64,000 bases of DNA, taken from assembly GCF_008729015.1 (NCBI RefSeq), contig NZ_RKSM01000001.1, forward strand, positions 1,364,001 through 1,428,000, written 5' to 3'. Source of the DNA: Haloarcula sp. CBA1129. Lineage in GTDB: Archaea > Halobacteriota > Halobacteria > Halobacteriales > Haloarculaceae. The number at the start of each line of letters is the position of its first letter. Position 1 is the stretch's first letter. Positions 5,483 to 16,348 of this stretch are shown piece by piece. Below the pieces are notes generated by a model. That model made no database searches. It was not told the DNA's origin and saw only the letters and a program-made list of their open reading frames with translations. A program made the translations under genes and the position numbers.

Positions 5483-6052
5483 ATGCAGGTTCATAGATTC
5501 GAAAAAGTCTGGCTCGGTGCAGCGATACTGCTCATCGTCGGATTCATCGCCACCATCGCCTACGGTTCGGTCGGCGTCGGTGTCGGAATGGTCGACGATT
5601 CGGGCGGACAGATCAGCGCACAGGCGGTACAGAACGGTAACACTGGAACCCCATTTGACGACCCCGGCGTCGTCAAAGAGGACGGTCAGTACGTCGTGTA
5701 CGTCGTCGCCCGGCAGTTCCAGTTCGTGCCCGGCAGCGGGGACACACCGGTCCGTGTGCCCGCGGGGGCGAACGTCACGTTCAGAGTAACCAGTGCCGAC
5801 GTGGTACACGGTTTCTCCGTTGTCGAGACCAACATCAACACGATGGTCATTCCGGGGCAGGTCTCGGAAGTCTCGGCCCGGTTCAACGAGCCCGGCACCT
5901 ACGGGCTTATCTGTCACGAATACTGCGGGGCGGCCCATCACACGATGGGCGGTTCCGTCGAAGTCGTCCCGCCGGAGGAGTACGATATGCAGCAAGAGAA
6001 TATCGAACAACCCGAAGATGATGCACAGGCCCAACAGGAGGCGGATCAGTAA
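5483..6052 (+). CDS. cbaB: ba3-type cytochrome oxidase subunit II
   Basis: Protein of 189 aa with one N-terminal membrane helix and an extracellular cupredoxin domain. The binuclear CuA ligands are visible: a His in DVVHGFSV, then CHEYCGAAHHTMGG (Cys-x3-Cys, His, Met). It receives electrons from the halocyanin and passes them to subunit I. The short length and single N-terminal helix match ba3 (type B) oxidases rather than two-helix aa3 subunits. Its stop TAA overlaps the ATG of subunit I by one base. Confidence 0.93.
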   Translation: MQVHRFEKVWLGAAILLIVGFIATIAYGSVGVGVGMVDDSGGQISAQAVQNGNTGTPFDDPGVVKEDGQYVVYVVARQFQFVPGSGDTPVRVPAGANVTFRVTSADVVHGFSVVETNINTMVIPGQVSEVSARFNEPGTYGLICHEYCGAAHHTMGGSVEVVPPEEYDMQQENIEQPEDDAQAQQEADQ

Positions 6053-7740
6053 TGGTGTTCGTCGACTCCTATCCGAAAACGTCGAAGCTCGTCCGTAGCG
6101 AGTTCCTCGTGTCGTTCGTCGCCCTCGGAATCGGTGCGTTGTTCGGCGTCATTCAGGCGCTCCATCGAACCGGCGTGTTCCGGGGCTTCGTCAGTTCGGC
6201 CGACTACTACACGATTCTGACGGGCCACGGCGTCCTGCTGGCGCTTGTGTTTACCACGTTCTTCATCGCGGGACTGTTCGCATGGGCTGTCGCCAACAGT
6301 CTCGAACGGGAGCTGCCACAGCGCATCTCTTGGTCGGCCTTCTGGATAATGCTCACGGGGACAGTGCTCGCGGCCGTGTCCATCATCGGCGGCATTGTCG
6401 GCTCCCCAACGATTCTGGGTCACGACCTCGAAGCCGACGTGCTGTTTACCTTCTACGCACCGATGAAGGCACATCCGGCGTTCTACATCGGCGCTGCGCT
6501 CATCATCGTCGGCTCGTGGGTCGCCGGCCTCGCGTACTTCAAGTCCCTGTGGGACTGGCGCTCGGAGAACCCAGACGAACGTATTCCGTTGCAGACGTTC
6601 ATGGTTCTGACGACGATGCTGATGTGGTACGTCTCCACCATCGGCGTCGCCGTTGAAGTCGTCGCCTTCCTCATCCCGTGGTCGCTCGGACTCATCCAGA
6701 ACGTCGACCCACTGCTGACGCGGACGCTGTTCTGGTACTTCGGCCACCCGGTCGTGTACTTCTGGCTCATGCCGGCGTACCTCGTCTGGTACACTATTCT
6801 GCCGAAGTTGGCCGGCGGACGACTGTTCAGTGACCCGCTGGCCCGCGTGGTCTTCGTCGCCTTCCTGCTGCTGTCGACTCCAGTCGGTTTCCACCACCAG
6901 TACACCGACCCCGGCATCCCATCGGGATATAAATTCATCGCGATGACGAACACGATGTTCTTGCTGTTGCCCTCGCTGTTGACCGCGTTCACCGTGGTCG
7001 CCTCAGTTGAACACGGCGCTCGCCAGCGGGGTGCAAAGGGCTACCTCTCTTGGCTTCGGAATCTGCCGTGGGGCAAGCCGGCCTTCGCCGGCTGTATGCT
7101 CGCCGGCCTGATGTTCGCCGCGGGAGGCTTCTCCGGCATGATCAACGCCGGGATGAACATCAACTACCTCATCCACAACACCATCTGGGTGCCCGGCCAC
7201 TTCCATCTCACCGTCGGGACTGCGTTCGCGCTGACGGCGATGGCTATCAGCTACTGGCTGGTCCCACAGATTACCGGGAAGAAACTCCGGCAGCGCAGTA
7301 TCGCTGTGCTCCAGCCATACGTCTGGTTCGTGGGCATGGCAGTGATGTCGAACGCAATGCACCGTGCGGGCCTCGCCGGCATTCCACGACGGACTGCCGA
7401 GCCGACGTACGACGAGTTCGCCTTCGAGGGCGTCGCCGGAACGGTCGGTGAAATGCGAATCCAGATAGCTATCGGCGGCTTCCTGCTGTTCGTCGGCGCG
7501 GCGATGTTCCTCATCGTCATGGCCGACACCCTGCTCGCTCGCCGTGGCGGGACGCTGTCGGTCAACGGCAACATCCCGGAGCCGCTGTCCGGCGCGGACC
7601 ACAGCCCACGGATTCTGGACAACTACAAGCTCTGGACGGCGATTGCCCTGCTGCTCATCGTCATCGCCTACGGGCCGCCACTTGCCAGCATGGTCGCTGA
7701 CGGCCTGTTCGCGCCCGGTAGCCCGCCGATCCCGGTCTAA
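6052..7740 (+). CDS. cbaA: ba3-type cytochrome oxidase subunit I
   Basis: Protein of 562 aa with about 13 membrane helices. It is the catalytic haem-copper subunit that reduces O2 to water and pumps protons. Ligand motifs in order are TGHGVLLAL (low-spin haem His), WYFGHPVVYFW (CuB His and the cross-linked Tyr), HHQYTDPG (two CuB His) and WVPGHFHLTVG (high- and low-spin haem His). The motif set and the lack of D-channel signatures fit the B-type family described as cbaA in Natronomonas pharaonis. It is translationally coupled to subunit II. Confidence 0.94.
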   Translation: MVFVDSYPKTSKLVRSEFLVSFVALGIGALFGVIQALHRTGVFRGFVSSADYYTILTGHGVLLALVFTTFFIAGLFAWAVANSLERELPQRISWSAFWIMLTGTVLAAVSIIGGIVGSPTILGHDLEADVLFTFYAPMKAHPAFYIGAALIIVGSWVAGLAYFKSLWDWRSENPDERIPLQTFMVLTTMLMWYVSTIGVAVEVVAFLIPWSLGLIQNVDPLLTRTLFWYFGHPVVYFWLMPAYLVWYTILPKLAGGRLFSDPLARVVFVAFLLLSTPVGFHHQYTDPGIPSGYKFIAMTNTMFLLLPSLLTAFTVVASVEHGARQRGAKGYLSWLRNLPWGKPAFAGCMLAGLMFAAGGFSGMINAGMNINYLIHNTIWVPGHFHLTVGTAFALTAMAISYWLVPQITGKKLRQRSIAVLQPYVWFVGMAVMSNAMHRAGLAGIPRRTAEPTYDEFAFEGVAGTVGEMRIQIAIGGFLLFVGAAMFLIVMADTLLARRGGTLSVNGNIPEPLSGADHSPRILDNYKLWTAIALLLIVIAYGPPLASMVADGLFAPGSPPIPV

Positions 7741-7763
7741 CACCACTTCACTACGCTTTCATC

Positions 7764-8312
7764 ATGTTCGACGACGTCGACGGTCCGGAGCAGAAAACGC
7801 TGCTACGACTCCTCATCATCGCCGGAATCGGCATCCCGATCCTCATCGAAGTCGTTACCTTCGGGAGTATGATGGGGCACCACTTGATCGGTGACGCCGG
7901 GGACGAGGCGGTCCCCGAAACGCCGACTGCGGAGTCGGCCGGTGTCGGCGTCGGCGACCCGATTCTCGACTCCTCCGCAGTCGCAGCCCGCATCGATTCG
8001 GCATCTGTCGTCACTGCGGACGAGGGGTGGCGATTCACGCTCGCGGTGAACGTGACGAACACCGGGTCAGATCCCGCGGCAGTTCGACTCGACAGCGTCA
8101 CGACCCGCAGCGGAGAGACGGTTGCGGAAGCCGCAAGCACTGGGAAGCTACCGGCGGGACAAGCTGACGACGTGACCAAGTCGTGGCTGCTTCCCCCCGG
8201 CGAACGTCCGGACACCGTTTCTGTAACGGTGTTCGTGTATCCGGATGAGTCGGAAACGCAATCGACACAATACACCGTTGCGCTCGGTGATATCCCCGTT
8301 TCGAACCGCTGA
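7764..8312 (+). CDS. oxidase-operon protein with one membrane helix and an extracellular beta domain
   Basis: Protein of 182 aa. Residues 14-36 form one hydrophobic helix (LLIIAGIGIPILIEVVTFG). The rest is polar and, from about 85, reads like an Ig-like or FxLYD-type beta domain with VNVTNTGSDPAAVRL. It starts 23 bases after subunit I on the same strand, so it belongs to the oxidase operon and may be a small auxiliary subunit or assembly factor. It has no metal-binding signature, and its homology to known oxidase subunits is not clear. Confidence 0.75.
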   Translation: MFDDVDGPEQKTLLRLLIIAGIGIPILIEVVTFGSMMGHHLIGDAGDEAVPETPTAESAGVGVGDPILDSSAVAARIDSASVVTADEGWRFTLAVNVTNTGSDPAAVRLDSVTTRSGETVAEAASTGKLPAGQADDVTKSWLLPPGERPDTVSVTVFVYPDESETQSTQYTVALGDIPVSNR

Positions 8313-8317
8313 CCGCC

Positions 8318-9580
8318 TCACCCGTCGACGGGGTCGCCACAAGACGGGCAGGTGTCAGCGTCGGGCGGGAGCGACTCGCCGCACTCGCTACAGTACGACT
8401 GTCCGCTGTTGCGGTCGCCCGGCGTGAAGACGGACGTATCGTCCATCCACGCTTCATCGGTCGCCGAGGCAGGCTCATTTGTATCGCCCGTCTCCGATTC
8501 CGTATCTGTACCACTGTCGGTGGCCGCCGTCTCCGGTTGTGCAGCATCGTCCGACAGCTGCGCGGTGTCCTGTACCGATTCGTGAGCGGGCGGTTCCGTC
8601 GTGGGGGCCTCGTCGGGCGAGAACACGCGTGTCCCGGTGTGCCCCGGTGGCTCTGCGTCGCTGTCAACATCTTCGGCGGCAGTCCCGTCCTCAGTCTGTT
8701 CACCGGAATCCGGTGTGGCGTCGACAGCCCGTTCGGTGGCTGAACTCTCGTCGCCGTTTTGCACTACCCCAACTGGTGGCATGATCGGGAACCGCTGGTC
8801 TGGACGGCGGTGCGGGTTCGAAAGCGGTGCGCGGATTCTGACGACGGTTCCAGCGAGCAATTGAACGAAGAGGTACGCGCTCGCCAGCACGCCGGGGACC
8901 GCGATGAAGAGAGCTGTGGCTTGGGACGGCCGGACGCCCAGCAACTGGAGCGCTGTCTCAGCTATGGGACCGACGCCGGCCCGCGCCAGCCACGGGGAGA
9001 GCGCCGACGAAACGCCGGATGCGGTGCCCATCTGGAGCACCCATCCAGTACTGAGAGAGACCGCACTCACACACACCAGCAGCGACAGAAGTGGAGGGAC
9101 TGAAAGTGTGTACACGCGGTGTCCGTAGGCGACGGTCCGGACAACCAGATGCACTGTTCCGAAGAATGCAACCACCGTGAGCAGGCGCTGCTGGCCGAGA
9201 ATGAGACTTCCCAGCAGGCAGCCGAGGAGGACAGTGCCGGGGAGAACGAGCAACAGGCTCGGATGGTCCAGCCGATACGCCTCAACAAGGTTGCCGTAGC
9301 TGTTCCGAAGCCGTCGGTTGACGAGCACGACGGTCGCCAGTGAGGGACTGAGGAGCCAGAGACCCGCGGCGAGCACAGTACGCAGCGAGACAGTTTGGCC
9401 AGCAAGTGTCACGGGAACAGTACGTTCGAGTCCCGGGACCTGCGTCAACAGCAGTCCCGTCGCGAGTACCCAGCCACTGTAGACGAGCCATGCTATGCCC
9501 ACACCGACAAACAGCCAAGATTCAGCTCGTAATAGTGCGGCGGATTCGCGGAGTTCCAACCCCAGTCGACCACGCTGCAT
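8318..9580 (-). CDS. six-helix membrane protein with C-terminal zinc ribbon
   Basis: Protein of 420 aa and last gene of a five-gene same-strand cassette. The first 240 residues carry about six hydrophobic helices. Then comes an acidic, Ser/Thr-rich disordered linker (about 270-385). The final 30 residues form a zinc ribbon, YCSECGESLP followed by DTCPSCGDP (CxxC..CxxC). The same ribbon style occurs in the neighbouring FHA protein. The long Ser/Thr-rich linker is a plausible phosphorylation target of the cassette kinase, which is an inference. No transporter or enzyme signature is seen. Confidence 0.78.
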   Translation of the reverse strand: MQRGRLGLELRESAALLRAESWLFVGVGIAWLVYSGWVLATGLLLTQVPGLERTVPVTLAGQTVSLRTVLAAGLWLLSPSLATVVLVNRRLRNSYGNLVEAYRLDHPSLLLVLPGTVLLGCLLGSLILGQQRLLTVVAFFGTVHLVVRTVAYGHRVYTLSVPPLLSLLVCVSAVSLSTGWVLQMGTASGVSSALSPWLARAGVGPIAETALQLLGVRPSQATALFIAVPGVLASAYLFVQLLAGTVVRIRAPLSNPHRRPDQRFPIMPPVGVVQNGDESSATERAVDATPDSGEQTEDGTAAEDVDSDAEPPGHTGTRVFSPDEAPTTEPPAHESVQDTAQLSDDAAQPETAATDSGTDTESETGDTNEPASATDEAWMDDTSVFTPGDRNSGQSYCSECGESLPPDADTCPSCGDPVDG

Positions 9581-9620
9581 CAGCCTGATGTTTCCCGACC
9601 GACCGCTTAACTGTGGGTGG

Positions 9621-10763
9621 TCACGCCGCCAGAATTGTCATCGTGATGACACCGGATAGTTCGAGTTCATCGCCCAGTTGGATCGGTTCCCGGTCGCCTT
9701 TCTTCAGTTGGGTCTCGTTCAGCCGCGTCGGGTTGTCCCCGAGGTCAACCAAATAGTACCCATCCGGTTGACGGTCGAACCGGACGTGTTCCCGGTGGAT
9801 CCGAACCGCCTCGTCTTCCGGTCGGCCGGCGTCCAGTAGCGCCGCCCGGATTTCCCGGCCGATGCGGTCCCCGTCTTCGACAGTGATGTCACGACCCTCG
9901 ACCGAAAGAACGAGTTTGTCCGGGACCGTCGCGTCGTCGGTGGACTGTGACGCGAGTGTGTCGACGGCGTTGCCCGTGGCTGCTGACTCACTCGCTGTCT
10001 CGTCAGTGGTCGACGACCCTGCCGAGTCAGCCGTCGACGTGTCGCTCTCGCCGCGATGCGCGTCCAAGTCCTCCCCACAGTTGACACAGAAACTGGCATC
10101 GTCATCGACAGCGGTGTCACAGGACGGGCACGCGTCAAGCGACCCGTCGTCTCCCGGTGTGATGTCCTGTACGTCGGCACCGCAGGAAACACAGAAATTT
10201 GCGTCGGCGTCGAGTTCCTGATCACAGTCCGGGCAGGTAATCGTCGCCGTATCGTCGTCTGCCTCGGGGGTTTCGTCGGATGTCTCGGTATCCCCATCGG
10301 AGTCACTACTGGCCTGATCCGGGACATCATCCGGTTCGTCGGGCTCCTCCCCAGCGTTCGGCTCAGTTCCGTTTTCGGCCTCGGTGTCAGCTGTAGTTTC
10401 GTGTTCCGCCGCCGTCTCTGCCGTCCCCATCCTCTCTTCTCCGGCCTCGACTGCCCCAGTGTCTGAGACCGCATCGACCGCTGCTTCGTCGTCGCTATCA
10501 TCGTCGACGGTGGACTCAGCTGGGGTCTCGGCTTCGTCGCTAGTCCCTCTCGGCTGACCATCCGCCGACCCCGGCTCGTCCGTTCCTTCCGGTATCAGGT
10601 CGGCGTCGTCCGGCACCCCATTGCCGGTGTCAAAATCAGCGGCGCTTTCGTCAGTGTGTTGCCACTCACCACAGTCCGGGTTTGTGCACCATCCGCCCGC
10701 GACTGTCGGATCGAAGTTCTCGTCGCATATGGGGCATTTTACCGTGCGGTCGGATTCAGGCAT
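9621..10763 (-). CDS. zinc-ribbon and FHA domain protein
   Basis: Protein of 380 aa. It has an N-terminal zinc ribbon (VKCPICDENF, CTNPDCGEW), a very acidic low-complexity stretch of about 130 residues, two more zinc ribbons (CPDCDQEL..CVSCGA and CPSCDTAV..CVNCGE), another acidic linker, and a C-terminal forkhead-associated domain (about 285-380). The FHA core is recognisable from RIGREIRAAL, IHREHVRF, YYLVDLGDNPTRLN and QLGDELELS. FHA domains bind phosphothreonine peptides, so this is a likely reader for the kinase two genes upstream. The gene lies 60 bp downstream of the phosphatase gene and 40 bp upstream of the membrane zinc-ribbon gene. Confidence 0.85.
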   Translation of the reverse strand: MPESDRTVKCPICDENFDPTVAGGWCTNPDCGEWQHTDESAADFDTGNGVPDDADLIPEGTDEPGSADGQPRGTSDEAETPAESTVDDDSDDEAAVDAVSDTGAVEAGEERMGTAETAAEHETTADTEAENGTEPNAGEEPDEPDDVPDQASSDSDGDTETSDETPEADDDTATITCPDCDQELDADANFCVSCGADVQDITPGDDGSLDACPSCDTAVDDDASFCVNCGEDLDAHRGESDTSTADSAGSSTTDETASESAATGNAVDTLASQSTDDATVPDKLVLSVEGRDITVEDGDRIGREIRAALLDAGRPEDEAVRIHREHVRFDRQPDGYYLVDLGDNPTRLNETQLKKGDREPIQLGDELELSGVITMTILAA

Positions 10764-10823
10764 GGGTTTCGTTAGGCTCTACAGAATCGAGAAATAAAAT
10801 ACTTGTCCCACGAAAATTTCCTT

Positions 10824-12032
10824 CTACTCATCTGTCATAATAACGGTATCTCGTTCGGAAATGTCGATGTCAGGGTCGATATCTCGAACTGGCATCCCGC
10901 CGTCTTCCGGCGTTTCCGGGAGCGCACTGTCAGCGAACAGTAGAACGGAGATATTGTCCTTCCCGCCCCGGTCGTTCGCCAAGGACACGAACTCCTGACT
11001 TGCCGCGTCGAGGGACGCTGCATCGAGGACCACGTCACGGATCTCGTCATCGGTGACCACCGCTTCGCGGATGCGCTCGGCTACCGAGTCGGCGTGGTCC
11101 GAATCGACGTATTCCTCGTACAGGTCCGGCGCGTCGGTCTGTGCGTCAATGAGACCGTCGCTGGTCGCCAACACCGTGTCTTCCGCGTACAGTCTGACCG
11201 TTCGCGTGTCCACCCCGACAGTCGCCTCGTCGGGGTCCTCGTAGCCGGACCCGCCCAGCGCGCGGGTGATTTCGTTCCCGTTGGGGTGGACGTGGGCCTC
11301 GACGGGGTCGATTTCGTCGCTGTCGACCCACTCCTGAACGACCGCGTGGTCTCTGGTCAGCGGCGAAATCGTCTCGCGGGCACTGTTGACGACGTAGGCC
11401 CGGCTATCACCGACCCAGCCGTAATGGAGTTTGCCGTCGGCGTATATCCCCGCGACGACCGTCGTATAGGATTGGGTCCCGGTCTCGTTTGCGTACCGGA
11501 TGATCTCGCGGTGAGCTGCTGTAATCGCCTCTGCCACGGCGGTTTCGAGCTCCCGCTCGCCGGGCGGATCCGGAAGCACGTCACGGGCTACATCGACATC
11601 GAAGCCGCCGGGATAGCTCCGGGCCGTTCGAATCGCCACGGGAGCAAGGTGTTCGGCCACGACAGTCGTCGTGATGTACGACGCGATGTCGCCGGCATCG
11701 TGTCCGCCAGCACCGTCGGCGACCACGAACACGCCGGCCGAACGGTTCATCGGCTGTCTGTTGCTGTCAGTGTCGGGCGTATCCGCGTCGTCAGCGTCAG
11801 AAGGGTCCCTGTCGTCACCGGCGTCAGCCGCCGGCCCGGTATCGGATGATTCGTCTGTCGCGTTCGCTGTCTCGTCACCGTCTGCCGTGGCCGGGTTCTG
11901 CGACTGCGGTCTATCCTGCCCCCGGTAACCATCGCGATGCCCCTCCTCGAACACCGTCAGAGAGACGCTGTCCTCGTTGATACCCTGTCCTCGCTTCCTG
12001 TCGCCGATGTCGTAGTTCGTGCTGTATCTCAT
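10824..12032 (-). CDS. PP2C-family protein phosphatase
   Basis: Protein of 402 aa of the PPM/PP2C fold, which removes phosphate from Ser/Thr using two metal ions. Visible motifs are the N-terminal KRGQGINEDS (RxGxxNED-type start), FVVADGAGGHDAGD (the DGxGG metal-binding motif), GDSRAYVV, ATSDGLIDA and RGGKDNISVLL (the GGxDNxS motif). A disordered acidic insert of about 60 residues (45-105) separates the first two motifs. The ATG overlaps the TGA of the kinase gene by 4 bases, so kinase and phosphatase are translated as a coupled pair. Confidence 0.92.
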   Translation of the reverse strand: MRYSTNYDIGDRKRGQGINEDSVSLTVFEEGHRDGYRGQDRPQSQNPATADGDETANATDESSDTGPAADAGDDRDPSDADDADTPDTDSNRQPMNRSAGVFVVADGAGGHDAGDIASYITTTVVAEHLAPVAIRTARSYPGGFDVDVARDVLPDPPGERELETAVAEAITAAHREIIRYANETGTQSYTTVVAGIYADGKLHYGWVGDSRAYVVNSARETISPLTRDHAVVQEWVDSDEIDPVEAHVHPNGNEITRALGGSGYEDPDEATVGVDTRTVRLYAEDTVLATSDGLIDAQTDAPDLYEEYVDSDHADSVAERIREAVVTDDEIRDVVLDAASLDAASQEFVSLANDRGGKDNISVLLFADSALPETPEDGGMPVRDIDPDIDISERDTVIMTDE

Positions 12033-13267
12033 GACTCCTCCGGATGGAACTCGAACGTGACCCCGTAGGTCGGGTGGACCAGCGACACCAGATCGCCGTC
12101 AGTGAGTGTGACCGACTCGGGGGGAACGTTGCCGTGCCTGTCGGTCGGGTCCTCGCCCTCGGAGCGCAGACGGTTACGTCCGGGCGCGGAGAGGACCCGC
12201 TGCCAGCCGGCCCCTTTCTGGACGAACGTCCCGTTGAGACTCCGGTCGTGGAGAGACCACTCGCCGTCCTCGATGTCGAACTGTACTTGCACCGACGAGA
12301 TGTACTCACCCTGTGGGTCTTCGATGGTTATCGATGCTGGGGGACCGCTCGCGCCCTGTCGCCCGATAGTATCGCCCGGTTCGACGGTGAACTGCCTGTC
12401 CGCCTGAATGTACGTCACTGACGCCGTCGCGGGCGGCGTTGGATCACGCCGCTCAAGTACCTCCTTGAGGACCGTCGCGTTCCGGTATCGGTCGCGGTAA
12501 TGCGACTGCGTGGCCCGTTCGACGATTTCAGCCAGATAATCGTCGCAATCGGCCCCGAACGCCTGTGGATTCACGCCGTCTTTCTTCGGGACGCTCCCCT
12601 TGAGCAGGAACAGGAGTATCTTCCCGATAGAGTACACGTCCGACCACGGTCCCTGCCGAACGTCGGTTCGGCTAGCTTCGGCGACTTCGCGGGGCTTGAA
12701 CGGCCCCAGAATCGTCGTCCCGGTGTTCCCGGAGGACGGATCCTCGGTGGCATCGAAGCCCGTTGCCGTGTTGAAATCGATGAGTGTGGGCGTGATATCG
12801 GGTGTGAGCATCACGTTCTCCGGTTTCAGGTCCCGGTAGACGATCTCGTTCTCGTGGAGGAAGCCCATCGCGTCACAGAGGTCGATGCCGATCTGGCGGA
12901 CCTGCTCACTGTCGTCGATTGGCCCGTGCTGGTCGATGACCTCGTCGAGCTCGATCCCGTCGACGATGAGCTGGACGACCAGAAACGGAACGTCACGTTC
13001 CGTGACCTGATCGTAGTAGTCCATCACGTTCTCGTGGCCACCAGCCCGGCGGATTCGCTCCAGCGAGCCGACCTCCTTTTTGAAGTACTCTTCGATGATA
13101 TCGGGGTCGTTCTGGGACTCAGTGTAGTTCGGGTATTTGACGGCGACCGCCTCACCCGTCTCGGTGTCCCGTGCGCGGAACGCCTTCGCGAATCCCCCCT
13201 TACCGAGGAACTCTTCGAGTTCGTACTGGCCGGCGATGACATCACCGCTCTCAGGTTCCCAGTTCAT
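12029..13267 (-). CDS. Ser/Thr protein kinase with C-terminal FHA domain
   Basis: Protein of 412 aa. A eukaryotic-type kinase domain spans about 12-270: glycine loop GKGGFAKAF, ATP-binding Lys in AVKYPN, catalytic loop VYRDLKPENV, metal-binding segment LIDFNTATG. Two substitutions are notable: the usual HRD is YRD and the usual DFG is DFN. The catalytic Asp, Asn and metal Asp are kept, so activity is likely. A C-terminal FHA domain (about 290-405) shows TIGRQG, SVQVQF and SLNGTFVQKG, so the kinase may read its own phosphosites. It lies 57 bp downstream of the VWA gene and overlaps the phosphatase gene. Confidence 0.92.
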   Translation of the reverse strand: MNWEPESGDVIAGQYELEEFLGKGGFAKAFRARDTETGEAVAVKYPNYTESQNDPDIIEEYFKKEVGSLERIRRAGGHENVMDYYDQVTERDVPFLVVQLIVDGIELDEVIDQHGPIDDSEQVRQIGIDLCDAMGFLHENEIVYRDLKPENVMLTPDITPTLIDFNTATGFDATEDPSSGNTGTTILGPFKPREVAEASRTDVRQGPWSDVYSIGKILLFLLKGSVPKKDGVNPQAFGADCDDYLAEIVERATQSHYRDRYRNATVLKEVLERRDPTPPATASVTYIQADRQFTVEPGDTIGRQGASGPPASITIEDPQGEYISSVQVQFDIEDGEWSLHDRSLNGTFVQKGAGWQRVLSAPGRNRLRSEGEDPTDRHGNVPPESVTLTDGDLVSLVHPTYGVTFEFHPEES

Positions 13268-13323
13268 GAATCACCCGTTTCTCCGGCCAGTAGCGGCCCT
13301 GCCGACACTGCAGGTTGGGACGG

Positions 13324-14508
13324 TCACTTCTGGATTCCCTCGTCAGTGACGATTTTCGTCGCCTTGTTCTGCTCCTTGCGCCCACCCTCCATCACGATAC
13401 GCGTCTCCCGCTCTGCTGTCTGGACAGCCTCGGTGTCCTCGCCGTGGATACGCGTCATTCGCTCCAGTTGCGTCTGTGCTTCGGCGACATTGCCCTTGCC
13501 GAGTTCCGTCTTGATAACGGTCTGCCGGTGGTCCACGTCGACCTGTTCGTTGTGTTCGGCCAGTTTCGCCTCATCGTCGGTGTAGTCGACGGTGATTGAT
13601 TCCCGCGTCGTCTCGCCGCCGGCAGACAGCGAGACATCCGCCAGAGACACAGCGTCTTGGGGGTCATTGGGCGGTGCGTGTATCTTCAGCACGACCCGCT
13701 GGGTCTCCCGGTCGAGCAGGTCGGGCAGCGGCACGACGGCCGTGTTGTCCTCCCAGTTGGGATCCACGGACTGCGTCTGTGGGAGCGAGCGGTACACTTC
13801 GCTCACCTCGACGCCGTCGGCCACGTCAAGTTCGAGACGGGCGTCGGGAGCGACAACGGTCCCGGCCTCCTCGACTGCGTCGCCGAAGAACGACTCGATG
13901 TCACCGGCGGCGTCCAGATGTGTCCACTCGCCGCGGGCAACGGTACCGAGCGTCCGGATCGTCTCCTCGCGGTAGTCGCTCCCGATGCCGGCTGCCTTGA
14001 TTCTGATCCCCTCGGTGTCGATTTCGCGTGCTAGCGTCCCGAACGCTTCCGGGTCGTGAGAGTTGTCCTTCCCGTCAGAGAGGAGCAGGACCCGCCGAGC
14101 AGTGTTGTCGTCGGTCGGTAAATCCTGCAGGGATGCCTTCGCTTCCAGCAGGCCACTGTACATGTCAGTGCCCCCACCGGCGGAGATGTCAGCGACCGCG
14201 TTCACTGCCGTTTCGCGTGAAATGGTTCCCCACCGCGTCGGCGCAAGTACCGTCGTGACCTCGTTGTCGAAGGCGATGATCGAGATGTAATCGTCCTCGT
14301 CGAGGAGTCCGAACACCCATTCAGCGCCAGCGCGGGCCTGCTCGATGTCGTCGCCGGCCATCGACCCACTGGCGTCGATGCAGAGGGCAATCTGTCGCGT
14401 GGGTGATTCCTCCAGCCGTCCGGGCTCGACTTCGATCTCAGCGGTCAGTTTCGCCCCGCCCGTCGGCACGTAGGGTCGGTTGACCTCGCTCACGACAGTA
14501 GCGGTCAT
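13324..14508 (-). CDS. von Willebrand factor A (TerY-like) protein
   Basis: Protein of 394 aa and first gene of the phospho-signalling cassette. The VWA domain (about 35-215) has the complete metal-ion site: DASGSMAGD (DxSxS), a Thr in GGGTDMYSGLL, and an Asp in LLLSDGKDNS. No signal peptide or membrane helix is seen, so it is cytoplasmic. A beta-rich region and a Lys/Arg/Glu-rich C-terminal tail follow. Cytoplasmic VWA proteins coded beside PP2C and kinase genes are known from bacterial TerY-type phosphorylation triads, and this cassette has the same logic. Confidence 0.88.
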   Translation of the reverse strand: MTATVVSEVNRPYVPTGGAKLTAEIEVEPGRLEESPTRQIALCIDASGSMAGDDIEQARAGAEWVFGLLDEDDYISIIAFDNEVTTVLAPTRWGTISRETAVNAVADISAGGGTDMYSGLLEAKASLQDLPTDDNTARRVLLLSDGKDNSHDPEAFGTLAREIDTEGIRIKAAGIGSDYREETIRTLGTVARGEWTHLDAAGDIESFFGDAVEEAGTVVAPDARLELDVADGVEVSEVYRSLPQTQSVDPNWEDNTAVVPLPDLLDRETQRVVLKIHAPPNDPQDAVSLADVSLSAGGETTRESITVDYTDDEAKLAEHNEQVDVDHRQTVIKTELGKGNVAEAQTQLERMTRIHGEDTEAVQTAERETRIVMEGGRKEQNKATKIVTDEGIQK

Positions 14509-14640
14509 ACTGGTAGATGGGTCGTACGGAGTAGTTATATGTTTCCCTCAGATCGAGGGAAAAAAGTTCCAGCCACTATCTGACCCGGTAGTCTCTAGCT
14601 ACTATCCGTCCCCAGTAGTAGGCACTATTTATGATGCCAG

Positions 14641-15243
14641 TCACGCTGGCTCGACTCGACTACCGACCCAGAGAAGGGTTCCGAGCAGTGCGACGACACT
14701 TAGAGGGAGGAGCCACTGGAACACCAAGAGCAGTCCAGCGCTTGCCTGAACGCCGACAACGAGTAGGATAGTGGGCCCACAGCAGGCGAACCCGGAGAGT
14801 AGTCCCGGCAGTCCCGACGCGACCCCGGCTCCCGGACCGAGGCGGCAGGCCGTCGGACCACGCCATGCGACGACAGAAACGGCAAGGTTGAGTCCGATCA
14901 ACAGCGCCAGAACACCACCGAGTAGCATGTTCAGCGGTGAGACGAGCAGTTCAACCGGGCCGACAACGACTAAGCCAATCGGTTCCCACTGAAACGGCCC
15001 GACCTGCCGGAACGCACGGGTAAACGGGTTACTGACAACAGAAACCTCGTAGGCCGATGGGCCGAGGCCGAGATGTCTGAGCCCAGCGAGATACAGCAGG
15101 AAGTACGCGAGTCCCGACAGAACCAAGATCGCCTGTCCGTCGCGGCGGGTGAGCGCCCCGCTGACCGCACCCACAGTGTTCCGAAACAAGCGGTGGATGC
15201 TGGCAGCCACGCCTGCCCTGCCGGTCGGACTGTCAGTTGACAT
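14641..15243 (-). CDS. polytopic membrane protein paired with DUF3179 lipoprotein
   Basis: Protein of 200 aa with about five or six hydrophobic helices and a conserved-looking GFACCGPTILL in the penultimate region. The start at 15243 (MSTDSPTGRAG) overlaps the end of the DUF3179 gene by 11 bp, so the two are co-translated. The paired Cys in the membrane, just before Gly-Pro, could bind metal or take part in thiol chemistry, but this is only a guess. Longer in-frame starts lie wholly inside the upstream gene and are rejected. Confidence 0.72.
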   Translation of the reverse strand: MSTDSPTGRAGVAASIHRLFRNTVGAVSGALTRRDGQAILVLSGLAYFLLYLAGLRHLGLGPSAYEVSVVSNPFTRAFRQVGPFQWEPIGLVVVGPVELLVSPLNMLLGGVLALLIGLNLAVSVVAWRGPTACRLGPGAGVASGLPGLLSGFACCGPTILLVVGVQASAGLLLVFQWLLPLSVVALLGTLLWVGSRVEPA

Positions 15244-16348
15244 ATCCTCCCTCCGGATAGAAGCCGGCCCAAGCGAACCACATCGCGTCGAAGGACAGCG
15301 AACGGTCCAGCGGGAGCAAATCGGCATCATATACCGTCCCGTCAACCGTATAGCCGTCGGCCGACGCCTCGACCGTCGTTGACTCCGGGTTCGCGTACAC
15401 GTAGCCGGTCGCTAAGTCGGTATCAGCGACGGCGACATACGGTGTATCGTCAATTCGACCGGTCAGCACGCGGTGGCTCAGCAGCGTTTCCTTATCGAAT
15501 GCAAGCGCCCCGCTTTCCGTCCGAGTTCCGACGACGACGGCCTTCGGGTGAGCGCGACCGTCGCCTTGCAGGGGTTCAAACAGCGTCCGCGTACTCGAAT
15601 AGTAGCCGCGCTTCTCGTTATACTGGCCGTAGGGATCAACGCCGTAGCGACGCGAGAAGCCCGTGTCTTCGGTGAGCACATTCGTCTCTGGGTAGGCACT
15701 GGACCAGCGGCTCCATGTCGTCCAAAAGACCCGAAATTCTCGCAACGATTCGCCAGTTAGTGGGCCCCTAATTGCCGTCGCCAACATCTGTGGCCACCAA
15801 CTATCGGTGCCCCGGTCGTACATCGTCAAGTTCGAATTCACCAGTCGACCGGAGACACCGAACTCCACCGATCCACGCTCGAACCCCTGAGCGGTGCCCG
15901 TCAGCGGACAGTATGTCACAGCGATAGAGTCGCCGGCGATGGTGTCGTTCACGATTTCATGATGGACGAGAATGTACTGTGGATAGGCTTTCGCCGCCCC
16001 GTCGCGGACCACGCCGAATACTGGGTCGTCCGGAGCCAGTATTTCTGGAGGTGTGTCAGCGAACGTCGGGTCGTCGATAGCCGGAATGCCGTCTTTGGGG
16101 ACGCCGCCGCTGACGACGTTCTCTTCGAGCATCCCGAGTTCGTAGTCCAGATGCAGACGGCTATCAGCTATCGGGGGCTTCGGTCCGTCGCTTTGGGCAG
16201 TGGCTGCCGGTGGCGTCTCAGTGCCGACATCGGACCCGGCTGCCGCAGTTGACCCAGAATGTGAACCGTCATCTCCCGCGCAGCCTGCACCGCCGAGTAT
16301 CACACCGGCACCAACCGTCGCGAGAAGCCGGCGGCGGGAAAGGTCCAT
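15233..16348 (-). CDS. DUF3179 family Tat lipoprotein
   Basis: Exported protein of 371 aa. The ATG at 16348 starts MDLSRRRLLATVG, a twin-arginine signal, followed by a lipobox-like GGAGCAG. This indicates a lipoprotein tethered outside the cell after export in folded form. The mature part matches DUF3179, with VTYCPLTGTAQGFER, a Cys-containing segment typical of the family, and GRLVNSNLTMYDR. The biochemical role of DUF3179 proteins is not established to my knowledge. The gene is followed immediately by a small polytopic membrane protein. Two earlier in-frame ATGs exist but would bury the signal peptide. Confidence 0.85.
   Translation of the reverse strand: MDLSRRRLLATVGAGVILGGAGCAGDDGSHSGSTAAAGSDVGTETPPAATAQSDGPKPPIADSRLHLDYELGMLEENVVSGGVPKDGIPAIDDPTFADTPPEILAPDDPVFGVVRDGAAKAYPQYILVHHEIVNDTIAGDSIAVTYCPLTGTAQGFERGSVEFGVSGRLVNSNLTMYDRGTDSWWPQMLATAIRGPLTGESLREFRVFWTTWSRWSSAYPETNVLTEDTGFSRRYGVDPYGQYNEKRGYYSSTRTLFEPLQGDGRAHPKAVVVGTRTESGALAFDKETLLSHRVLTGRIDDTPYVAVADTDLATGYVYANPESTTVEASADGYTVDGTVYDADLLPLDRSLSFDAMWFAWAGFYPEGGYVN

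Follow-up and report, generated by a model that had tools for sequence, protein, structure and literature searches.

What does a single operon encoding a protein kinase, a protein phosphatase and FHA-domain readers control in a haloarchaeon, and which known signalling system is its closest relative? To our knowledge, almost no Ser/Thr signalling circuits have been defined in Euryarchaeota. The window analysed here, a 64,000-nucleotide stretch of the Haloarcula sp. CBA1129 genome, contains five genes on one strand that the first-pass annotation had read as a VWA, a kinase-FHA, a PP2C, a Zn-ribbon/FHA and a membrane Zn-ribbon gene. ORF calls and Pfam matches bear out that set (Table 1), as well as three of the four gaps given for it (-4, 60 and 40 bp), whereas the first, between the VWA and kinase genes, measures 56 bp instead of 57. 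The PP2C start overlaps the kinase stop via ATGA, and one promoter, its sequence kept across Haloarcula species, precedes the five co-directional genes.

Table 1. Genes, promoter and threonine tags of the five-gene operon (positions within the window).
Feature	Position	Strand	Evidence or remark
VWA gene	13324..14508	-	ORF call; Pfam VWA 1e-15
Kinase-FHA gene	12029..13267	-	ORF call; Pfam Pkinase 1e-28, FHA 6e-6
PP2C gene	10824..12032	-	ORF call; Pfam PP2C_2 2e-10
Zn-ribbon/FHA gene	9621..10763	-	ORF call; Pfam Zn ribbons 1e-11, FHA 5e-6
Membrane Zn-ribbon gene	8318..9580	-	ORF call; Pfam C-terminal Zn_Ribbon_1 5e-6
Operon promoter, BRE/TATA-like, GAGGGAAACATATAA	14535..14549	-	About 27-41 nt upstream of the VWA ATG
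VWA tail tag T384-K-I-V-T-D-E (predicted phospho-acceptor)	13339..13359	-	Alignment of 41 VWA sequences
PP2C extreme C-terminal tag T396-V-I-M-T-D-E	10827..10847	-	Alignment of 41 PP2C sequences
Tag 1, T317-R-V-F-S-P, membrane protein linker	8615..8632	-	T317 and V319 invariant
Tag 2, T382-S-V-F-T-P, just ahead of the Zn ribbon	8420..8437	-	Alignments A3 and A5

Conservation was counted in 41 kinase, 41 PP2C, 41 VWA and 35 Zn-ribbon/FHA sequences. The kinase, besides which no Hanks-type kinase of the 4.05 Mb genome passes the Pfam cut-off, combines a Ser/Thr kinase domain (residues 15-249) with a C-terminal FHA domain (residues 300-357; Pfam); K44, E65, R145-D146, N151 and D164 are invariant in 41/41 sequences, the DFG position reads DFN or DFT, and the pThr-site residues of the FHA domain (R303, S324, N345 and T347) are invariant in 41/41. 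The phosphatase is Stp1/PstP-like (NCBIfam Stp1, 5e-42; PDB relatives Stp1, PstP and a PppA), with invariant metal-site Asp residues; this match and that of the kinase to NCBIfam PknB (1e-34) both fall below the equivalog cut-off. As far as sequence can tell, the catalytic residues of both enzymes are present, and the two make up a PknB/Stp1-like pair. The earlier description of a writer, an eraser and readers accompanied by a metal-site VWA protein is upheld; catalytic and metal residues are invariant, or nearly so, in 41 sequences each.

The other two soluble proteins point to the system's relatives. In its AF2 model (pLDDT 90.5), the VWA protein consists of a beta-sandwich split by the VWA domain and followed by a C-terminal helical bundle; profile searches of the PDB matched ArnB (8S05, 2e-22) and ArnE (5A8J, 5e-16), and Foldseek aligned the model with 8S05_A over its full length (TM 0.72/0.75) and with 5A8J (TM 0.67/0.72). 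As modelled, the protein has the full ArnB architecture, and its MIDAS is intact (D45, S47, S49, T114 and D145 invariant in 41/41). The Zn-ribbon/FHA protein consists of an N-terminal C4 ribbon (residues 10-31), an acidic linker, a double ribbon (174-233) and an FHA domain (about 283-375), with profile matches to GarA, Rad53 FHA1 and the ArnA zinc finger (8S05_C/5A8I). This is the ArnA layout, an N-terminal C4 zinc finger plus a C-terminal FHA domain, encoded by a gene linked to an arnB-like gene. Within its FHA site, R303 is kept in 32/35 sequences and both N344 and T346 in 35/35, while the canonical Ser is retained in 8 and replaced by His in 27, the window protein included; the Arg/Ser/Thr triad with which the ArnA FHA domain meets pThr is thus incomplete in the window protein, which may change how the site binds pThr.

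Among characterised systems, it is Sulfolobus ArnA/ArnB that comes closest, not TerY. The first-pass annotation knew of no characterised archaeal counterpart, but ArnA and ArnB, together with kinases and a phosphatase, have been characterised in Sulfolobus (PMC6509490, PMC12852372, PMC7472852, PMC5300886). The Sulfolobus acidocaldarius pair (PDB 8S05, 5A8I; ArnE 5A8J) shares with the cassette the ArnB fold with MIDAS and helical bundle, and a partner with an N-terminal C4 zinc finger and a C-terminal FHA domain, for which pThr reading is predicted here; kinases ArnC and ArnD and phosphatase PP2A act on that pair, and the cassette is predicted to be coupled likewise to its kinase and phosphatase. 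It differs in that the kinase bears its own FHA domain and shares the operon, the eraser is a PP2C rather than PP2A, there is an additional six-TM protein with tags (and tagged clients in other haloarchaea), and the conserved Thr of the VWA protein belongs to a short tail that follows the bundle, whereas the ArnA-bound phosphothreonines of ArnB lie within it.

Across Halobacteria, the kinase is carried by 38 of 292 genomes, and the VWA, kinase and PP2C genes adjoin in all 38; because the flanking genes differ outside Haloarcula, this synteny is not attributable to chance. The Zn-ribbon/FHA gene stands beside the trio in nearly all carriers (it was not found in loci L040, L099, L104, L105 and L107), adjoining the VWA gene in Natrialbaceae-like loci and lying two genes away in Haloarcula, where the operon occurs in 15/15 sampled genomes. 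The five-gene neighbourhood proposed for Halobacteria therefore survives for the trio and, nearly always, its Zn-ribbon/FHA companion but not for the membrane gene, which is lineage-specific, confined to part of one family and missing from Halomicrobium-type loci L039, L065 and L066. A literature search largely confined to papers free of subscription, for TerY systems too, returned nothing on the haloarchaeal cassette or on the tag described below.

Since ArnA and ArnB control archaella in Sulfolobus (PMC6509490, PMC12852372), and since an ArnB fold is accompanied here by an ArnA-like partner whose gene sits directly ahead of the ArnB-like gene in several lineages, the cassette might be the haloarchaeal archaellum regulatory network, with ArnA/ArnB-like proteins repressing motility genes according to nutrient state. 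We consider this unlikely because two cassette carriers (G228 and G223) gave no match to archaellin (PF01917) but 13 of 15 non-carrier genomes tested did, which argues that motility is not the defining role of the cassette, and because the cassette occurs in 38 genomes only and no recognisable motility proteins were found among its clients. A motility-only role was rejected, as the distribution of archaellin does not track that of the cassette.

The membrane protein comprises six TM helices (residues 3-250; AF2 model and hydropathy), a long, low-complexity linker (254-393), the Ser/Thr-rich one reported earlier, that is disordered in the AF2 model, and a Zn ribbon (397-414; AF2, Pfam); a fold assignment was dropped (pLDDT 63, no significant PDB match). 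The only conserved block of this linker is a threonine tag, T-[RQ]-V-[FY], present in 14/14 representative linkers and in 0.03-0.3% of shuffled versions of each. A common consensus, T-x-[VI]-hydrophobic, extends to the VWA and PP2C tails and is the new motif of this study; neither the conserved Thr tag nor the tagged clients featured in the first-pass annotation. The tag peptides of the cassette are GHTGTRVFSPDE, WMDDTSVFTPGD and SERDTVIMTDE. Position 384 of the VWA tail, which follows the helical bundle and has low pLDDT from residue 387 on, is T in 38/41 and S in 3/41 sequences, with I or V at +2 in 39/41; the PP2C tail has T in 41/41 and I, V or L at +2 in most. The spacing resembles that of the self-binding tails of GarA, OdhI and DgcB, with hydrophobic residues at +2 and +3 (PMC6733907), and the tagged membrane protein is probably a phosphorylation target of the cassette. 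An alternative interpretation is that T-x-V-F is a structural or docking motif, such as a VWA MIDAS ligand or a Zn-ribbon contact; VWA MIDAS sites do bind extended peptides, and the membrane protein conserves the residues that follow Thr as strongly as Thr itself, but we regard this as improbable because Thr is the most conserved position of the PP2C and VWA tails, where later residues vary and only Ser replaces it in the VWA tail, and because FHA domains and kinase are always linked.

In this genome, the strict motif has 14 matches at the DNA level; with [ST]P (T-x-V-F-[ST]-P) and inside a called gene there are only two, tags 1 and 2 of the membrane protein, which is also the only tagged protein among about 28 Zn-ribbon matches; an 85-aa ORF with a loose tag match looks spurious. 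Other haloarchaea have the tag at the end of proteins that are encoded near the cassette and whose domains are unrelated (cold-shock, winged-helix, HEAT, beta-propeller, pentapeptide and membrane proteins); a Zn ribbon often comes after it. Of the genes with a C-terminal Zn ribbon, 49/59 were tagged near cassettes versus 0/5 in control regions, and of island genes 36/146 versus 4/352 in controls. These counts were obtained by matching a simple regular expression to heuristically called genes, in related lineages and in island regions partly picked after tag matches had been seen. Strong tagged-tail matches occurred in 13/38 carrier genomes versus 3/254 others (p=2e-10), and in 6/31 versus 3/254 with profile-building genomes left out (p=7e-5); tagged proteins also occur in one Halorubrum-type genome (G072) in which no cassette kinase was detectable. 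Other lineages have a six-TM tagged protein of like architecture whose homology to the Haloarcula protein is not demonstrable; against the one of Natrialbaceae-like loci, profile comparison gave a probability of 9% (E 0.004).

Islands of diverse tag-sharing genes surround the core in some haloarchaea, and kinase models of PADLOC defence systems match the kinase domain, as might be expected of an anti-phage or conflict system whose variable clients act as effectors round a conserved signalling core. We doubt this strongly, however, because the PADLOC matches reflect generic kinase similarity and the other four proteins have none, no toxin or nuclease was found among the scanned clients, and every sampled genome of the genus has the operon. 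Membership in PD-T4-6, MADS or BREX PglW was rejected, the kinase domain alone matching and the accessory genes not. First suggested was a resemblance to bacterial TerY-type VWA/PP2C/kinase triads; that the cassette is itself such a triad, bacterial in origin, serving in metal or stress response and enlarged by lineage-specific additions, is the least probable reading of all. These three activities and Zn ribbons are linked alike in actinobacterial neighbourhoods (PP2C, a stand-alone vWA and a kinase that is often a Zn-ribbon fusion; PMC7159879), and in distant bacterial loci (L141, L118 and L122) a VWA gene likewise stands with PP2C or kinase genes. However, membership was rejected, none of 19 VWA members having matched a TerY domain; the VWA here is not stand-alone but ArnB-like, the kinase carries FHA instead of a Zn ribbon, the ribbons sit on other proteins, a membrane tag protein is present, and no ter genes were noticed in an undirected look at neighbouring genes.

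GarA/OdhI and DgcB share with the cassette a short Thr tag with hydrophobic +2/+3 residues, an FHA domain (here the predicted reader of the tag) and related kinase and phosphatase families, but carry the tag in cis on the FHA protein, whereas the cassette tag lies mostly on other proteins, often with a Zn ribbon after it; the threonine-phosphorylation pathway of type VI secretion (PpkA/PppA/Fha) shares the kinase, PP2C and FHA logic, but the cassette VWA is separate and ArnB-like, and no secretion genes were noticed nearby. We favour, as rather probable, a self-contained pThr switch built on an ArnA/ArnB-like core, with tags that are predicted to be phosphorylated and FHA-read. The cassette kinase, we infer, would phosphorylate T317 and T382 in the cytosolic linker of the membrane protein, T384 of the VWA protein and T396 of PP2C, and the FHA domains of the kinase and the Zn-ribbon/FHA protein would bind the phosphorylated tags and so gather the VWA scaffold and both enzymes at the membrane. 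A second, phosphorylation-independent contact, like that of the ArnA zinc finger with ArnB, may come from the Zn ribbons, and PP2C would strip the phosphate so that the complex falls apart. Many clients in several other haloarchaea would have acquired the tag, often together with a C-terminal Zn ribbon, so that one kinase/phosphatase pair could recruit or release many. At about even chances we place the wider proposal that this is an undescribed archaeal phospho-tag system, in which a single kinase/PP2C pair, together with an ArnAB-like FHA/VWA scaffold, controls unrelated proteins sharing a portable C-terminal T-x-[VI]-[FY] module, often with a Zn ribbon. Such a system would be at its smallest in Haloarcula, with one membrane client, and would take in many clients where Halorubrum-type and other haloarchaea have islands.

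Writer, eraser, readers and predicted acceptor threonines come together in this one transcription unit, and Haloarcula is a genus open to cultivation and manipulation. The cassette ties haloarchaea to the ArnAB module, with its Sec23/24-like fold, and a handful of mutants could test the portable phospho-tag that it predicts.

The first-pass annotation had read this locus as a five-gene phospho-signalling cassette with a logic like that of the bacterial TerY vWA/PP2C/kinase triads. The observation stands, as the five ORFs are present on the minus strand with domains that agree with Pfam and NCBIfam, but the interpretation was right only in part, and TerY membership fails. Transcription runs VWA, kinase-FHA, PP2C, Zn-ribbon/FHA, membrane Zn-ribbon (inter-ORF spacing 56, -4, 60 and 40 bp), and a BRE/TATA-like element (GAGGGAAACATATAA), with its 3' edge ~27 nt upstream of the VWA ATG, is kept across Haloarcula species. 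Apart from the cassette kinase, no Hanks-type kinase scores above the family cut-off in this genome of 4.05 Mb.

Coordinates of the cassette and of associated features in the window and in compared loci.
Feature	Sequence	Coordinates	Remark
Five-gene cassette	Window	8318-14508	Minus strand
Membrane Zn-ribbon gene	Window	8318-9580	Operon end, 5 bp from convergent gene
Convergent gene	Window	7764-8312	Comes after cytochrome-oxidase-like genes
Cytochrome-oxidase-like genes	Window	5483-7740	
Membrane Zn-ribbon gene, Haloarcula rara	Locus L096	13127-14313	Two overlapping frames; possible frameshift
Related VWA gene adjoining PP2C and/or kinase genes	Locus L141, Cloacimonetes	7758-15687	Also in bacterial loci L118 and L122

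The kinase was found (E<1e-20) in 38 of 292 Halobacteria genomes from 14 of 77 genera, including all 15 Haloarcula genomes, and VWA, kinase and PP2C genes adjoin in 38/38 of these carriers. Haloarculaceae-like genomes keep the order VWA-KIN-PP2C-ZnR/FHA-membrane. Natrialbaceae-like and Halorubrum-type genomes mostly place the ZnR/FHA gene upstream of VWA and often have a second kinase; a divergent second kinase (~30% identical over its length) adjoins the cassette in L043-L048, L067-L069, L111 and L112. Among the cassette loci compared, the membrane gene is missing from L039, L065 and L066, and no ZnR/FHA gene was detected in L040, L099, L104, L105 and L107. Because flanking genes vary outside Haloarcula, the block is either mobile or retained as one unit. 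All frames are open in close Haloarcula species, with identity declining along the operon (VWA 96-98%, kinase 97-100%, PP2C 90-92%, ZnR/FHA 77-84%, membrane 73-81%). The bacterial VWA loci in the table suggest that the module has a broader relative in bacteria.

Kinase residues Lys44, Glu65, Arg145-Asp146, Asn151 and Asp164 are unchanged in 41/41 sequences, in which Asn or Thr replaces the DFG glycine, and the metal-site residues of PP2C do not vary. In the kinase FHA, Arg303, Ser324, Asn345 and Thr347 are retained in 41/41; the FHA of the ZnR/FHA protein keeps Arg303 in 32/35 and Asn344 and Thr346 in 35/35, with His at the Ser position in 27/35, a real caveat on its predicted binding mode.

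The best match of the VWA profile (19 members) is Sulfolobus acidocaldarius ArnB (8S05, 2e-22), followed by ArnE (5A8J, 5e-16) and a Catenulispora VWA protein (4FX5, 8e-15). Its AF2 model (pLDDT 90.5, pTM 0.87) matches the same proteins over full length (4FX5, TM 0.77; ArnB, 0.72/0.75; ArnE, 0.67/0.72) and has a beta-sandwich interrupted by the VWA domain, then a helical bundle. This is exactly the published architecture of ArnB, a Sec23/24-like layout, and Euryarchaeota such as Halorubrum encode structurally related products (PMC12852372); the VWA protein is thus an ArnB-fold protein. The ZnR/FHA profile matches GarA, Rad53 FHA1 and the ArnA zinc finger; the protein resembles ArnA in its layout, but its FHA mostly lacks the canonical Ser and it is therefore not classed as ArnA. 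Together, the ArnB and ArnA zinc-finger matches indicate a cassette core built like ArnA/ArnB, the Sulfolobus pair controlling archaella, and probably working like it. However, the cassette brings its own FHA-bearing kinase and PP2C, whereas in Sulfolobus the kinases ArnC/ArnD and the phosphatase PP2A serve ArnA/ArnB (PMC5300886, PMC7472852).

The novel element of the cassette is a portable Thr tag, T-x-[VI]-hydrophobic, a predicted phospho-acceptor. Residues 254-393 of the membrane protein, predicted to be disordered, form a linker that we infer to be cytosolic from six TM helices, an Arg-rich stretch past the last and the positive-inside rule. The only conserved block in this otherwise unalignable linker is T317-R-V-F-S-P, with T317 and V319 invariant. 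T-[RQ]-V-[FY] occurs in 14/14 linkers vs 0.03-0.3% of composition-preserving shuffles, although the lineages are related and multiplied frequencies are no probability. Many membrane proteins carry a second copy ahead of the Zn ribbon (T382-S-V-F-T-P), and among called genes of the CBA1129 genome the strict motif T-x-V-F-[ST]-P occurs in the membrane protein only. Similar Thr residues end PP2C (R-D-T396-V-I-M-T-D-E; Thr in 41/41) and lie in the VWA tail (A-T384-K-I-V; Thr in 38 sequences, Ser in 3). These tags share the hydrophobic +2/+3 pattern of the FHA-bound tails of GarA, OdhI and DgcB (PMC6733907). Six-TM proteins beside Natrialbaceae-like cassettes (L042-L045, L067-L071, L112) have in common a further conserved linker motif, V-P-S-S-P or P-P-S-S-P, besides the T-R-I-F tag.

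Near the cassettes of other genomes, T-x-[VI]-[FY] lies <=60 residues upstream of the ribbon in 49 of 59 distinct genes ending in a Zn ribbon vs 0/5 in control regions; many of the 49 are membrane-protein orthologues, which leaves the non-orthologous genes of L041, L046, L047 and L048 as independent evidence. The N-terminal parts of these clients are unrelated (cold-shock domain, PQQ beta-propeller, HEAT repeats, pentapeptide repeats, winged helix, six-TM membrane proteins). One beta-propeller family with a recurring MYNPTHRF-like N terminus supplies several clients within and between islands (L246-L253, in genomes G228, G284 and G173). In four extended islands, 36/146 genes carry a tag close to their C-terminal end, in low-complexity sequence, vs 4/352 in controls (p=7e-17, optimistic because the regions were extended once tag hits had been seen). 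A less biased test is the count of strong tag-plus-ribbon profile matches, found in 13/38 carriers vs 3/254 non-carriers (p=2e-10) and, with the seven profile-source genomes removed, in 6/31 vs 3/254 (p=7e-5). In two of the three matching non-carriers the Zn ribbon alone matched; in the third, the Halorubrum-type G072, the tagged proteins are genuine and no kinase was detected. Its tag-plus-Zn-ribbon proteins (cold-shock, beta-propeller-like and others) lie on several contigs (L261, L268-L271).

Motility is unlikely to be the only output of the cassette, since archaellin was not found in two carriers and is present in 13 of the 15 non-carriers tested. We propose that the kinase would phosphorylate Thr tags, to which two FHA domains, one in the kinase itself and one in the ZnR/FHA protein, would bind, with the VWA protein as scaffold and PP2C as eraser. 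In Haloarcula the membrane protein would be the main client and tether the complex to the membrane, and in haloarchaea beyond Haloarcula the cassette may serve many clients with a common tag.
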